64,000 nt of DNA from the NCBI RefSeq assembly GCF_900078335.1, contig NZ_FKBR01000005.1, positions 1-64,000 on the forward strand, in the 5' to 3' direction. The first letter of the stretch is position 1; each line of letters starts with the position of its first letter. The notes beneath the pieces were generated by a model. It ran no database searches. It saw only the letters and a list, made by a program, of their open reading frames with translations, and was not told where the DNA came from. The translations under genes were made by a program, and so were the position numbers. The DNA is from Bordetella trematum. Its GTDB lineage: Bacteria > Pseudomonadota > Gammaproteobacteria > Burkholderiales > Burkholderiaceae_B. Positions 1,183 through 35,862 of this stretch are shown in pieces.

Positions 1183-1231
1183 ATTCTGCTGCGATAATGC
1201 TGTATGGATATGCAGTATATTGCAGCAGAAT
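1183..1231. promoter_or_regulatory. Dyad with embedded LexA-like box
   Basis: A perfect 10-base inverted repeat, ATTCTGCTGC (1183-1192) and GCAGCAGAAT (1222-1231), frames a second element. On the minus strand positions 1200-1215 read CTGCATATCCATACAG, that is CTG-N10-CAG, the spacing of the LexA operator, flanked by TA on the left. The -10-like TATACT on the minus strand overlaps it. This suggests damage-inducible transcription of the gene at 873-1094. The nested dyads may bind two different repressors. Binding is inferred from sequence only. Confidence 0.5.
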
Positions 1232-2643: not shown

Positions 2644-3342
2644 CTATTCTATGTCACAAACCGTCTTAGTTGAAAGCCTCAGGACATGGTGGGGACAGAG
2701 GTTCGGCGTTTGCCTATCCGATGGGATCGGCAGCAGAAAGTCCCGGCCTCGTTCGGCGCTAGTATGCAGCCAATCGCCGTATGCACCCTCGGGAAGGATT
2801 GTCACCATACGTTTTTCCATGCCCGCCTGGTGGTAGGCGCGGAAAAGCGGGTCTGCGTCCGCGTTGATGGTCAGCATCGTGTAGCTTTCGTGCCACTGAC
2901 CTCCGGGGGGGGGGGCACGGACCGGCCACGCCCAGCGGCGCACCGTCTGCCCAGGTGAAGCGAGTAGCGACGGCCTTGCCTGAGCGCCAATCAGGTTCGA
3001 AGATCGCATCGGCAGGGATGATGCAGTGCTGCGCGCGGCGCCAAGCGTTGCGGAAGGTGAAGGCATTGGCGACGCGGTCGTCGCGCGCATTGAAGGTTGA
3101 CAGCTTCTCAGCACCGGCCAACGCGTCCGGCGGGTTGATCCCGAGATCAGCCCCCAACGGCCCGTGACGGCTTCGATGTCCCCCTCCGCCTCGTCGCCCG
3201 CGTCATGCTCCGGCGGTCGGCGCACGAAGACTCCCTGGTAGCGCGGCCACATGTCGTACTTGCCGAGCACGCCTGGCTTGGTCACGCCAAACTTTCTGAG
3301 CAGCTGTTCGGCGTCTTTCAGCGTCTGGTAATGGCTACACAT
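2644..3342 (-). pseudogene. SRAP-domain (YedK/HMCES-like) gene, two frameshifts
   Basis: SRAP proteins form a thiazolidine crosslink between Cys2 and abasic sites in single-stranded DNA. Here Met1-Cys2 is intact and a strong GGAGGG site precedes the ATG at 3342. The N-terminal part runs in one frame to RWGLIS (near 3143), the middle (STFNARDD ... CIIPADAIFEPDW) is in a second frame to about 2915, and the C-terminal part (GGQWHESYTMLTINAD) is back in the first. The joins need one base added near 3140-3142 and one removed from the 11-base G run at 2905-2915. About seven residues usually found near the second join also seem lost. Either it is a decaying prophage gene or there are sequencing errors. 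Confidence 0.8.
2905..2915. repeat. Homopolymer tract of 11 G
   Basis: Eleven consecutive G on the plus strand (C on the coding strand) lie inside the SRAP relic exactly where the reading frame breaks. With ten bases the middle and C-terminal frames would join. Such tracts slip during replication and are used for phase variation in Bordetella; they are also frequent sites of assembly error. Confidence 0.9.
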
Positions 3343-3503
3343 CAAACCCTCCAGGTAGGGCATCAGCATAGGCGTAGCGTCCATTGCGGGGCGCTATACA
3401 ACTGGCTGTCCGGGAGCTGTGTGACCCGCGAAGGGCGCACAACCCGAAGGGCGAAACCGTGTTTCAAGCGCTCGGAGCTGGCTGCGCATAGCCGAGCAAT
3501 CGT

Positions 3504-32334: not shown

Positions 32335-32601
32335 ATGAGCTGCCAAACAATCGGTCGTTCCCTGCATCGCGTGCTCGCCCCACACTGGCGCGATGGATGT
32401 CTTGCGGGAGCGATCATGATGCAACGGTGGGCCAGGGCCTGGCATGGCCTGTGGCGGCAAGGTCGTCAGGGGAGGGCGGCGACGCTTGCTGAGCTGTTTC
32501 TGCTGGGTTGGGCGCCGGCGGTGCTGCCGCGCCCGGGCAGTCCGGTGCGCGGGGCGGCGAGCGCCAGCGAGAAGCCGGCCTCGCCATCCTCAGCGACTTA
32601 G
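32335..32601 (+). CDS. Possible small protein, uncertain
   Basis: An 88-residue frame with starts at GTG 32332 or ATG 32335 and an internal ATG at 32416 that has GGGAG upstream. It is rich in Trp, Arg and Ala, with a hydrophobic patch (LAELFLLGWAPAVL), and resembles no family I know. It lies in the 484-base gap between the peroxiredoxin and radical SAM genes. The high-GC background makes chance frames of this length common, so I keep it at low confidence. The rest of the gap (32602-32740) shows no gene. Confidence 0.22.
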   Translation: MSCQTIGRSLHRVLAPHWRDGCLAGAIMMQRWARAWHGLWRQGRQGRAATLAELFLLGWAPAVLPRPGSPVRGAASASEKPASPSSAT

Positions 32602-32730
32602 TGTTGTTTTTTTTCAAATTCCTTTGCGCACAGGGGTTTAGGTGCCTTTCCCGGATGGCGAAATCGAATCCGGCCCACCCTCGCGGGCATTGGGGTACAT
32701 TGCAGAACACCCTTTGAGGGATTTCGGGGC

Positions 32731-32760
32731 TTGTCATGAGTACTGGTTTTTTGTACAGTA
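32731..32760 (+). promoter_or_regulatory. LexA-like box over the promoter of the radical SAM gene
   Basis: Positions 32741-32760 read TACTGGTTTTTTGTACAGTA, a near-palindrome with the CTG-N10-CAG spacing of LexA sites and symmetric TA flanks. A -35 TTGTCA (32731-32736) and -10 TACAGT (32753-32758) with a 16-base spacer overlap it, the usual repressor placement. The predicted start of transcription falls at or beside ATG 32766, so the message would be leaderless or nearly so. Confidence 0.6.
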
Positions 32761-32765
32761 CTTTC

Positions 32766-34208
32766 ATGATGAGAACCGAACATTCGCTTTCCGCCGGTCT
32801 TGGGTCCCCGGCAGCCGCCCCCGCCGCCTTGCGCGGTCGGGGTGCGGTGACTAATGTTCGCCATCGCTTCGAGGACGTCGAGCGCGAGGCTTTCTATGAT
32901 GGCTGGTCGGGCGACGATGCCTGCGCCCAGCCCGATCCGGCCTACGACACCTGCCAGGACATTCCCGATGACGATGTCTGCCAGGCGCTGCCCGATGACG
33001 ACATGGGCGGCGTGGCGGCCCGGCCCGGTTGCGGTACGCCGGTGGTGGCGGAGCCGTCGGCGCAGGCGCCCCTGCATGAGCAAGGTGCGCAAGCCGGCGC
33101 CGAGCCGCCCCCCGTTGAGCCCGAGTCCGAGCCCGAACCCGAGCCCGAACCCGAGCCCGAACCCGAACCCGAACCCGAACCCACTTGCGGGCAGCGTCGC
33201 ATTCCCGTCGTTGCCGCAGCGCGCACGCAAGTGCGGGTAGAGCAGGCACGCAAGCTGTTGTCGCGCAACGATTCGCCCGACATTCCCTTCGATCAGGCCG
33301 TCAATCCTTATCGCGGTTGCGAGCACGGCTGCGTCTATTGCTATGCACGGCCGACCCATGCCTATCTGGGCTATTCGCCGGGGCTGGACTTCGAAACCCG
33401 CCTGGTCGCCAAGGCCAATGCCGTGCAGGCCCTGCGGGCCGAGCTGGCGCGTCCCGGCTACAAGGTCTCGCCCATCAACATCGGTTCGGCCACGGACGCC
33501 TATCAGCCCATCGAACGCACCTGGCGTCTGACGCGAGGGCTGCTTGAGCTGATGCTGGAGACCCGGCATCCCCTGACCCTGGTCACCAAGAACGCTCTGG
33601 TCGAGCGCGATATCGATCTGATCGCCGCCCTGGCGCGCGAGCAACTGATCACCGTCTTCATCAGCGTCACCACGCTGGATGCGACCATGGCGCGCACGCT
33701 GGAGCCGCGCGCCTCGGCGCCGTGGCGGCGCATCGAAACCATACGCCGCCTCGCGCGTGCCGGCGTGCCGGTCGGGGTGCTGGTGGCGCCGGTCATTCCC
33801 TTCATCAACGATGAGTCGATGGAGCGCATCCTGGAAGCGGCTGCCGAGGCCGGGGCGAGCACGGCTTCGTACACCGTGGTTCGCCTGCCCTGGGAGGTCA
33901 AGACGGTGTTCGAGACCTGGCTGCATACCCATTTCCCCGACCGTGCCCAGCGGGTGCTGCATCGTATCGAGGACCTGCGCGACGGGCAGCGCAATGACAT
34001 CCGTTTCGGTACCCGCATGCGGGGCACTGGCGTCTGGGCCGATCTGCTGCGCCAGCGTTTTCAGATTGCCGCACGCCGGCATGGCCTGAGTGAAAACCGG
34101 CCCGAGCTGGCGCTCGACAAATTCCAGGCTCCGCTGCCCCGGCAACCCCGCAGCAGCCCTGCCGAAGTCGCCCGTCAGGCAGGGCAGATGGCGCTTTTCG
34201 AAGATTGA
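32766..34208 (+). CDS. PA0069-type radical SAM protein (SplB-related)
   Basis: A 480-residue protein with the radical SAM iron-sulfur motif CEHGCVYC at residues 185-192, preceded by NPYRGC and followed by YARPTHAYLGYSPGLDFE. These are features of the PA0069 group related to spore photoproduct lyase. The DNA lesion or other substrate is unknown. The first 115 residues contain ALRGRGAVTNVRHRFE, the usual N-terminal motif, and then an unusual acidic insert ending in a Glu-Pro repeat (residues 118-139). The start at 32766 or 32769 is preferred over 32736, as the promoter and LexA-like box overlap the latter. My recollection is that P. aeruginosa PA0069 belongs to the LexA regulon. Confidence 0.85.
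   Translation: MMRTEHSLSAGLGSPAAAPAALRGRGAVTNVRHRFEDVEREAFYDGWSGDDACAQPDPAYDTCQDIPDDDVCQALPDDDMGGVAARPGCGTPVVAEPSAQAPLHEQGAQAGAEPPPVEPESEPEPEPEPEPEPEPEPEPTCGQRRIPVVAAARTQVRVEQARKLLSRNDSPDIPFDQAVNPYRGCEHGCVYCYARPTHAYLGYSPGLDFETRLVAKANAVQALRAELARPGYKVSPINIGSATDAYQPIERTWRLTRGLLELMLETRHPLTLVTKNALVERDIDLIAALAREQLITVFISVTTLDATMARTLEPRASAPWRRIETIRRLARAGVPVGVLVAPVIPFINDESMERILEAAAEAGASTASYTVVRLPWEVKTVFETWLHTHFPDRAQRVLHRIEDLRDGQRNDIRFGTRMRGTGVWADLLRQRFQIAARRHGLSENRPELALDKFQAPLPRQPRSSPAEVARQAGQMALFED
33117..33182 (+). repeat. Hexanucleotide microsatellite encoding Glu-Pro
   Basis: Eleven tandem six-base units of GAGCCC or GAACCC (one unit GAGTCC) encode EPES then repeated EP. The tract is in frame, so unit gain or loss lengthens or shortens a rigid acidic linker without a frameshift. 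It lies between the N-terminal motif and the radical SAM core. Confidence 0.95.
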
Positions 34209-34278
34209 TCTGTTTCCCCCTCCAGCCCCTTTTGCCTTGCATCGCGCGACCGGGCCGGCTTTACCAAGGAGTTTTGTC

Positions 34279-34629
34279 ATGACAGCGGTTTCGCTTTCTG
34301 CTGATGCCCTGCTTCCCCAGGCCGATGCCCGTCCCAGGCGGGCGGCCCGCAGCGTGACGGGCTGGCCGTTCCAGGCTGCGCCCGATGCCATCGCACCGGA
34401 CCTGGCTGCCGATGGGCGGGGCGTCGAGGCCGGTGTGCCCGAGGCCGGCGGCGCACAGGCTGCCCGCCAGGCGCAAGAGGCCCTGTTGATGGCCTCGCAC
34501 GTCGAGCGTTATCAGGTTTTGCTCGCGCGTGAAATGCGCCGCCGCATGGCCTGGGACGTGGTCATGGTGGTTTCGTGGGGCGCATTGGTTCCGGCCCTTA
34601 TGTGGCTGGGGGCGGCGGCCGGTTTCTGA
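34279..34629 (+). CDS. Small tail-anchored membrane protein, unknown
   Basis: A 116-residue protein with AAGGAG (34266-34271) seven bases before its ATG. The first 60 residues are Ala/Arg-rich and probably disordered, then a charged helix (HVERYQVLLAREMRRRMAWD), then one C-terminal membrane helix (VVMVVSWGALVPALMWLGAAAGF, cited in parts VVMVVSWGALV and PALMWLG). It follows the radical SAM gene by 70 bases on the same strand and may share its promoter. No family was recognised. Confidence 0.55.
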   Translation: MTAVSLSADALLPQADARPRRAARSVTGWPFQAAPDAIAPDLAADGRGVEAGVPEAGGAQAARQAQEALLMASHVERYQVLLAREMRRRMAWDVVMVVSWGALVPALMWLGAAAGF

Positions 34630-34989
34630 GCGACAGCCGCTGGCGTCGCTATGCACGGCCTAAACTGCCCGGCCTCAGCTGCCTGGCCTATGCTTCCTGG
34701 CCAGAGCCCCCTGGGCTGCGGCCCCCCGCTTGTCTCGGGCAGCGGGAATCTCATGACGTTTTTTCACTGATTGTTTTTCTGGCAGTTTGCTGCGGGCTGC
34801 CGGCCTGCTTGCTTCCCGATCCGGGTTGTTTCCTGATCCGTCTTCCCGGCTGTGTTTCTGCCTGTTTTCCCGGCCATGGGCCCCGATGCCCTGTTTCCTC
34901 AGGGTTGTTTCCTCTTATTTGCTGAGGGTCCCGATGCGGCGTCGCGGTGCGTGTCGAGGCTGTCGTCGCCTGAGGCGACAAGCTGCCTG
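34630..34989. other. Intergenic stretch with short repeats, no gene seen
   Basis: This gap of 360 bases between convergent genes is unusually rich in T and C on the plus strand. It contains the 12-base direct repeat GGGTTGTTTCCT at 34823-34834 and 34902-34913, with partial copies between (CTGTTTCCTC, CTGTTTTCC). Frames crossing it look like low-complexity noise. It may be remnant or structured intergenic DNA. Confidence 0.5.
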
Positions 34990-35862
34990 TCAGTTCATGC
35001 TGAGCAGCACGACGCCGACCAGGATCGCCCCGCAGCCGGCCAGCCGTCCGGGGCCGACCTTCTCGCGCAGCAGGAACATGCCGGCCAGCGTGCCCAGCAT
35101 CATGGACATTTCGCGCGCCGGCGCCACCAGACTGAGGGGGGCGCCCATGCGCAGCGCGTACAACACCAGGATGTAGCCCAGCGGCGACAGCAGCCCGACG
35201 CCGATTGCCAGCCCCCAGTACCCCCGCATGGCTGCGATGTTCTGCGTGCGGCGCTGCAGCACGTGCGGGGTCATCATCAGGGTGCGGGTGACGCAAGTGA
35301 ACCAGTCGAACACCACGGGCATGATCAGCAGCATCTTGACGCCGTAGGCGTCCACCACCGTGTAGGAAGCGATGAAAAGGCCGATGAGCACGCCCCAGCG
35401 CACGCCGATCCAGGCCTGGGGCGTGCGGAACAGCGTCAGCCGGCCTTGCGTGGCGATCAGCAGCACCCCGCCGACCACGCAAAGCATGCCGGCGACGCCG
35501 CCGGCCGTGCCGGTTTCGCCCAATAGGGTGAAAGCGCCGATGGTAGAGAGCAGCGGGCCGGTGCCGCGTGCAATGGGGTAGACCACCGACAGGTCTGCCA
35601 CCTGATAGCCGCGTTGCAGGCACAGGCTGTAGCCCAGATGCAACAAGGCTGACGCCAGAATGCACAGGGCGACCGGCCAGCTCCACGTCATGCCTTCGTG
35701 AACCAGGACCCAGATGACCCAGGGGGCGTAGATGATGCTGGCCGCCAGCCCGTAGGCAAAGACGAACACCGGACCCACCATGGCCGCCCGCTTGGCCAGG
35801 ATGTTCCACGTCGCATGCGCCATGGCGGCGAGGATGACCAATGACAGGGCGGTATACGACAT
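34990..35862 (-). CDS. EamA/DMT-family transporter
   Basis: A 290-residue inner membrane protein with about ten membrane helices in two EamA halves, the drug/metabolite transporter layout. N-terminal features include AAMAHATWNILAKRA and the repeat-half counterpart LVAPAREMSMMLGTLAGMFLLREKV, quoted in parts LVAPAREMSMM and LREKV. The substrate is not deducible; family members export amino acids, metabolites or drugs. The start at 35862 gives the usual short N terminus. It faces the radical SAM group convergently and diverges from rplS. Confidence 0.88.
   Translation of the reverse strand: MSYTALSLVILAAMAHATWNILAKRAAMVGPVFVFAYGLAASIIYAPWVIWVLVHEGMTWSWPVALCILASALLHLGYSLCLQRGYQVADLSVVYPIARGTGPLLSTIGAFTLLGETGTAGGVAGMLCVVGGVLLIATQGRLTLFRTPQAWIGVRWGVLIGLFIASYTVVDAYGVKMLLIMPVVFDWFTCVTRTLMMTPHVLQRRTQNIAAMRGYWGLAIGVGLLSPLGYILVLYALRMGAPLSLVAPAREMSMMLGTLAGMFLLREKVGPGRLAGCGAILVGVVLLSMN

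Follow-up and report, generated by a model that had tools for sequence, protein, structure and literature searches.

A radical SAM gene of Bordetella trematum starts a few nucleotides behind a palindrome that resembles an SOS operator, which raises the question of how this gene is regulated and what the transcript starting there would do for the cell after DNA damage. We analyzed this locus within a 64-kb stretch of one contig (hereafter the window), and the features discussed below are collected in Table 1. We propose that the locus is a two-gene SOS operon of Bordetella, LexA-repressed and leaderless, in which DNA damage would lead to removal of LexA, to a leaderless mRNA, and from it to an enzyme and a membrane peptide. 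The best explanation of the whole, to which we assign a probability of about 0.5, is that this operon combines a radical SAM enzyme with a checkpoint peptide and is tuned by an RNA element. A sequence-only reading made before this analysis covered the box and the radical SAM gene; the second gene and the element in the first codons were absent from it.

Table 1. Features of the proposed operon, with positions in the window
Feature	Position	Strand	Basis
-35 hexamer TTGTCA of the predicted promoter	32731..32736	+	promoter scan; TTG hexamer 17-18 bp from TACAGT in 54/87 boxed orthologues
LexA (SOS) box TACTGGTTTTTTGTACAGTA	32741..32760	+	pattern and matrix scan, orthologue upstreams
-10 hexamer TACAGT, right half-site of the box	32754..32759	+	promoter scan
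PA0069-family radical SAM gene, 480 aa, predicted leaderless start	32766..34208	+	NF033668 match, start conservation, core model
Codons 10-30 of the radical SAM gene, near-invariant synonymous sites	32793..32855	+	42-locus alignment
Hairpin 1, 5-bp stem, 10-nt loop	32793..32812	+	consensus fold
Hairpin 2, 14-bp stem, two bulges	32814..32848	+	consensus fold
Glu-Pro repeat, in the variable stretch linking the N-terminal motif to the radical SAM core	33117..33182	+	mostly gaps in 122-homologue alignment
Second operon gene, 116 aa, WPF motif, hydrophobic C-terminal segment (...RRRMAWDVVMVVSWGALVPALMWLGAAAGF)	34279..34629	+	profile, own ribosome-binding site AAGGAG

LexA box, promoter and start codon

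We scanned the window with a LexA matrix derived from 44 distinct boxes of relatives, leaving out the window's own box. The sequence TACTGGTTTTTTGTACAGTA scored 32.7 bits, the highest value of all window positions on both strands, and the runner-up independent site reached 23.0 bits. With the same matrix, the boxes of recA, dinB and imuA, genes recognized by eye from their translations, scored 28.7 to 34.2 bits, and that of lexA itself scored 21.9 bits. Without mismatch, the pattern TACTGKN8ACAGTA occurs at three places in the 4.4-Mb genome, namely at TACTGGTTTTTTGTACAGTA, upstream of recA, and in one phage/tRNA-like region; the recA operator (TACTGGTTGTTTGTACAGTA) is one base off TACTGGTTTTTTGTACAGTA. 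Allowing one mismatch added five further places, including dinB and the imuA operon, the others being one small ORF and two chance-like places inside genes. The exact E. coli form CTGTN8ACAG had no match in the window; TACTGGTTTTTTGTACAGTA departs from it because its left half is CTGG, as in the recA box of the same genome. One LexA protein is encoded in the genome (TIGR00498, 236.7 bits; cut-off, 110.95).

The promoter consists of TTGTCA, 17 bp, TACAGT and a further 6 bp before the ATG, and it was the one site found in a promoter scan of positions 32600-35000, where 0.2 were expected. Both the SOS-type promoter and the overlap of box and -10 hexamer, as the sequence-only reading had claimed them, were thus borne out at this locus. 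LexA would sit over the -10 hexamer, and the promoter would start transcription at the radical SAM ATG; DNA damage would take LexA off, and the mRNA would then be translated from its first codon. From the box and this geometry, we infer the regulation, the transcript start and the co-transcription of the two genes.

To follow the box beyond this genome, we collected 92 gene copies from genus to order level, including that of the window; for two loci, L015 and L018, we used longer stretches from the respective genomes (L102 and L103) instead. A box with at most 3 mismatches in 12 positions was present in 87 copies, with at most one in 80, and with none in 41, while five copies lacked it (L032, L033, L036, L037 and L101). 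Across the phylum, 177 of 398 sampled genomes had an NF033668 match, and the upstream regions of 90 were examined. Based on our readings of the kinship labels, we use "gamma" for the same class outside the order and "alpha" for genomes outside the class. Of the alpha orthologues, 45 of 48 were preceded by GTTCN7GTTC or its complement (reversed-sequence control, 4/48), and exact CTGTN8ACAG preceded 23 of 35 gamma and 6 of 7 other Burkholderiales orthologues (control 0 in both). Among the 12 gamma upstreams without the exact form, two carried TTAGN6TACTA, which we take to be the LexA site of Xanthomonadales, and one had CTGTN8ACAG with one mismatch at the usual place (L216); no recognized LexA motif was found in the remaining nine. 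Because class-specific motifs front its orthologues, the radical SAM gene tracks LexA across motif changes. The sequence-only reading had named the lack of a conserved box in front of orthologues as grounds against its proposal; boxes were found across Proteobacteria.

On these sequence data, LexA control of the radical SAM operon is very likely. A box by chance was ruled out by the genome pattern counts, the matrix rank, the boxes kept at orthologues in several classes and the switching of motifs, leaving scarcely any probability that TACTGGTTTTTTGTACAGTA, a pattern so rare genome-wide, is a chance palindrome and the gene lies outside SOS control.

SOS control of the enzyme is known and not new in principle. 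The text on splB (COG1533) in PMC3323433 describes its SOS control in alpha- and beta-Proteobacteria with class-specific LexA motifs; the same text gives the trait as unobserved in its gamma-Proteobacteria. SOS control of splB in Bacteroidetes is described in the corresponding text of PMC8565304. In the open-licence papers searched, we found no joint mention with LexA of Rv2578c or of PA0069, which the sequence-only reading placed in the LexA regulon of Pseudomonas aeruginosa.

The longest ORF opens at an upstream ATG (32736), which we rejected as the start since it is not conserved among relatives. The start 23-24 nt past the box is conserved in close relatives. A TTG hexamer, 17 or 18 bp, TACAGT, and an ATG or GTG after 6-7 nt were found in all 42 copies bearing the RNA element described below and in 12 of 45 other boxed orthologues (54 of 87, the five box-less orthologues being left out of this count). 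Mean pairing with the 16S tail was -0.27 kcal/mol in the 42 element-bearing copies, -2.06 kcal/mol in 14 other short-gap orthologues, and -5.8 kcal/mol in 31 orthologues whose start lies at least 28 nt behind the box. Because both the box-to-start gaps and the 16S pairing differ, two designs, one leaderless and one leadered, seem to exist within the bacterial family. The predicted leaderless start at 32766 is likely on this conserved layout, in line with the earlier suggestion that the gene is "probably leaderless".

Several other LexA-like boxes were noted. The runner-up of the window, TGCTGTATGGATATGCAGTA at 1198-1217 (+), lies in a phage-like stretch; 17 bp away is a short ORF on the reverse strand (876-1181) with a match to phrog_5560, a family of unknown function. 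In a gene at 2647-3384 (-), the match to SRAP (SOS response associated peptidase) is confined to the C-terminal residues 160-215 of 246. Elsewhere in the genome, TACTGGATATATAAACAGTG (contig C46, 38145-38164) fronts a 79-aa ORF (MHANRTTQYVVV...), a candidate SOS gene, and the exact-pattern box TACTGGATAAAAACACAGTA (contig C22, 137650-137669) is the one in the tRNA/phage-like region, near the contig end.

The radical SAM enzyme and a probable RNA element in its first codons

The PA0069-like identity of the first gene product was confirmed by NF033668 (466.2 bits against a curated cut-off of 360, covering profile positions 32-341 of 348). Its cluster motif CX3CX2C comprises Cys185, Cys189 and Cys192, which were invariant in 122 of 122 homologues, a set gathered using that motif. 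No conserved fourth cysteine was found in the 122 homologues, the next best column having Cys in 43. A first structure model was poor (pTM 0.52), and a core-only model (pTM 0.80) was used instead. The closest solved fold to this core model was spore photoproduct lyase (SPL; 4fhf, Z 16.4 over 258 residues, 3.6 A), followed by lipoyl synthase (Z 14.2).

The sequence-only reading had pointed to SplB relatives that repair DNA photoproducts. The predicted fold agrees with that kinship, but the hydrogen-donor cysteine of SPL is absent. As described in the consulted part of PMC5368176, SPL repairs through a conserved cysteine hydrogen donor, Cys141 in B. subtilis. In the modelled core, the candidate donor place lies in a GSATD loop behind a barrel strand, whose equivalence to the SPL cysteine is suggested by strand order; it is occupied by N in 67 and by A in 55 of the 122 homologues. 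Because this donor cysteine is absent, we regard the protein as SPL-like in fold but not an SPL. That it is nevertheless a spore photoproduct lyase repairing UV photoproducts, as its best solved fold and the name splB given to the gene in a 2012 paper (PMC3323433, text on splB) would have it, is quite improbable: only the cluster cysteines are conserved, and the SPL profile TIGR04070 scored 19.9 bits against a cut-off of 400, with PF20903 also below its cut-off (19.9 against 27). Damaged nucleic acid is its probable substrate, and the predicted SPL-like fold would be combined with a different hydrogen-transfer chemistry.

Two observations concern relatives of this protein. In two Bordetella orthologues (L102 and L103), the open frames comprise 875 and 777 codons, and the linker ahead of the radical SAM core extends over several hundred residues. 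Short SplB-like radical SAM proteins were also present on viral contigs (L256, L257, L258 and L260), with 26-30% identity to the core in the best segment.

We further examined the first codons of the gene, where synonymous sites are nearly invariant. The 42 aligned loci were picked by a 16-nt seed within this block, so that only codons 16-30 provide an unselected test; there, synonymous differences per shared codon amounted to 0.103, compared with 0.410 in codons 200-400. Conservation over 15 codons was 0.944; no window starting past codon 35 exceeded 0.785. The seed pattern occurs once in this genome. In a collection of one genome per species (84,980 species), a longer form of the seed was found at 51 places, all in Bordetella, Achromobacter or Schauerella and all with a LexA-type box ahead (51/51); in 47 the frame could be followed into the radical SAM core, and in four the stretch ended before it.

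The block can be folded into two hairpins. All seven variable third codon positions are unpaired and all nine paired ones are invariant, five unpaired ones being invariant too (one-sided p 0.007). Within Bordetella and Achromobacter, the mean stability of the element was hardly above a synonymous null (z -0.48), and its 5' end was less open than the null, not more. Special stability or an opened 5' end was tested as the cause of conservation and found unsupported, and on these two values stability alone cannot explain the conservation of the block. No covarying pairs were found within this group. A search of Rfam 15 over 32600-33000 returned three chance-level matches, none over the gathering score and none on the two hairpins. 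A protein overlapping the block was rejected as well: read by hand with a codon table, the variable third positions cause amino-acid changes in both alternative forward frames and in all but one of the three reverse frames, and that last one is interrupted by a stop in some orthologues.

Searching 200 genomes with a model of the element gave 39 strong matches, one per genome, and 14 weak ones (E 3.6e-7 to 0.01, some of them second matches of a genome), five of which were fetched. Two of these, L263 (E 3.6e-7) and L264 (E 7e-6), belong to a single genus, none of whose genomes is among the 81 with a radical SAM match; the remaining three, L265 (inside a polA-like frame), L266 and L267, have the look of hairpins that arose by chance in coding DNA. 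Weak matches at orthologues without the element (L028, 24 bits; L071, 22; L072, 17; L069, 16) were kept out of the evidence. In L263 and L264, the element lies between tandem LexA boxes and a gene for the membrane peptide described below, at distances of 49 and 83 nt from the -10-overlapping box, with the promoter layout TTGCAA-17-TACAGT-7-ATG. Relative to Bordetella and Achromobacter, both partners differ in three stem pairs (none in 500 shuffles; 0 or 1 in slid controls), in an alignment fitted to the model and in two sequences of one genus; further pair types were no more frequent than in shuffles. Taken alone, L263 folds into the same two hairpins (z -4.1, 0/200), and L264 gave z -2.9 (2/200). 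The frame of the leaderless ATG runs into the peptide frame in L264 and not in L263. Because these loci carry the element without the enzyme, the element seems tied not to the enzyme but to a leaderless SOS transcript with the peptide gene at its end.

These compensatory pairs support an RNA structure, which we consider probably real. A different reading, that the near-invariant block is a protein-binding DNA site or an effect of codon usage, would account for the missing covariation within Bordetella and Achromobacter, for a stability near the synonymous null, and for loops in which most letters are invariant too. It is unlikely in view of the division between variable unpaired and invariant paired third positions and of the three double-sided changes in L263 and L264, where the ATG frame joins the peptide in one locus only. 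As an RNA structure, the two-hairpin element just past the leaderless start codon would tune translation of the operon or the stability of its mRNA, and such a role in translation or decay is the probable one. On the opposite strand, the complement of 32766-32865 (100 nt) folds at z -4.75, against -1.80 for the mRNA strand, and an antisense RNA may arise from the minus strand of the element region.

The membrane peptide

The second gene follows the radical SAM gene after 70 nt. The same C-terminus is encoded behind the radical SAM gene in all 35 testable element-bearing loci (7 of the 42 were too short or incomplete) and in all 33 testable named genomes (18 of 51 were too short), a set that overlaps the former. 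No exact LexA box was found between the two genes in the 35 loci. Among loci without the element, the downstream peptide gene was present in 2 of 31, a comparison between related and thus not independent genomes.

To determine the distribution of the peptide, we used a profile of 38 residues. In 200 genomes of the family, it was detected in 148 genomes and 36 of 43 genera (E<=0.01), 14 of the 148 being weak (best E above 1e-6), and the radical SAM gene was detected in 81 of 200 under the same sampling scheme. By these counts, the radical SAM gene is missing from at least 67 of the genomes that encode the peptide; of the two partners, the peptide is the more constant. In an order-wide sample, 6 of 300 genomes encoded the peptide (E<=1e-4), all six from the family of Bordetella.

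We then analyzed 40 further peptide copies from 27 genera, chosen before their sequence was read and covered with 500 nt upstream. Exact CTGTN8ACAG was found upstream of all 40 (reversed control, 0/40), and the element was seen at none of these loci. The conservation of codon positions 1, 2 and 3 (0.84, 0.86 and 0.535) indicates coding sequence. The products have a median length of 59 aa, an N-terminal part with a net charge of +7, and one hydrophobic span as judged by hydropathy, the best 19 residues scoring at least 1.63 in 40/40; W, P, G and D residues are conserved in and beside the span. No match was found up to E 1 in Pfam (five members), NCBIfam (three) or PHROGs (four), and one query each for plasmid and phage copies found none. 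In the literature that we searched (open-licence papers, mostly titles and abstracts), neither the peptide family nor the operon nor the element was described. As far as sequence can tell, gene 2 belongs to a previously unnamed family of cationic single-span membrane proteins, whose members in other genera of this bacterial family are preceded by their own LexA box, and SOS regulation of this family is almost certain.

SulA (PF03846) was not found in this genome, and in the family it matched 2 of 151 genomes, one of them over the cut-off, leaving 149 without it. According to the consulted part of PMC6851548, SOS-induced membrane-anchored proteins unrelated to SulA inhibit division in several bacteria. 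We tentatively read gene 2 as an SOS division checkpoint similar to SidA, at somewhat less than even odds; it would replace SulA and, like SidA of Caulobacter, act at the inner membrane to hold division. The operon as such probably pauses division or growth during DNA repair. Published work on Bordetella, as far as consulted, ties filamentation to a pathway called SOS-independent (PMC8816909).

The division reading draws on size, membrane span, regulation and the missing SulA, and the same features fit a toxin of the TisB type. TisB is an SOS-controlled small membrane peptide with control at the RNA level. A peptide of this type, or of the DinQ type, would depolarise the inner membrane and slow growth, and the element would then act as a translational brake or antisense target. 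Such a role suits a small cationic single-span peptide with a LexA box in 40/40 copies, the co-occurrence of element and peptide gene in every testable locus, and the existence of SOS-induced peptides with RNA-level control such as DinQ with AgrB (PMC3567139, as far as consulted). We consider it possible and less likely than a checkpoint, which we prefer: the element is absent from all 40 other peptide loci, and the conserved W, P, G and D suggest a specific partner.

Alternatively, the membrane protein could be an accessory that anchors the radical SAM enzyme or moves it to the membrane, as the two genes in a row behind one LexA box in Bordetella and Achromobacter might suggest. This is improbable, given that each of the 40 copies from other genera has its own LexA box and that so many genomes contain the peptide alone.

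The proposed operon and known systems

SulA is almost absent in Alcaligenaceae, the family of Bordetella and Achromobacter. The peptide family, short LexA-boxed genes present in about three quarters of the sampled genomes, is a direct and easily tested checkpoint candidate. The operon links a PA0069-type radical SAM enzyme to the SOS response and is an example of an RNA element placed within the first codons of a leaderless coding sequence. A bolder and rather doubtful proposal is that the unnamed peptide family is the Alcaligenaceae division checkpoint that replaces SulA, and that in Bordetella and Achromobacter it has been joined in one leaderless operon to a DNA-repair radical SAM enzyme, with the two-hairpin element within the first 30 codons setting the output of both.

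Compared with known systems, the enzyme belongs to the PA0069 family (NF033668) by its score, and the Bordetella and Achromobacter proteins differ from that family in adding a variable linker, Glu/Pro-rich in the window, and an N-terminus constrained at the nucleotide level. Spore photoproduct lyase (4FHC-4FHG) is the solved structure that the modelled core resembles most, whereas sequence identity is 15%, the donor cysteine is absent and the profile score lies far under its cut-off. The splB genes of PMC3323433 and PMC8565304 share the SplB-type radical SAM gene behind class-specific LexA motifs; the text on splB in these papers makes no mention of the leaderless layout, the second gene or the RNA element.

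The peptide resembles SidA, YneA, DivS, ChiZ and SosA, which the consulted part of PMC6851548 presents as small, with one span, SOS-controlled and unrelated to SulA, and differs from them in that its span lies at the extreme C-terminus. No LysM domain, a trait of YneA and ChiZ, appeared among Pfam matches up to E 1 in the five members searched. DinQ, a one-span peptide of E. coli under SOS control with the antisense RNA AgrB (PMC3567139, in the part consulted), is, together with TisB, comparable as a small SOS-controlled membrane peptide with RNA-level control, whereas the RNA element described here lies inside a coding sequence in Bordetella and Achromobacter.
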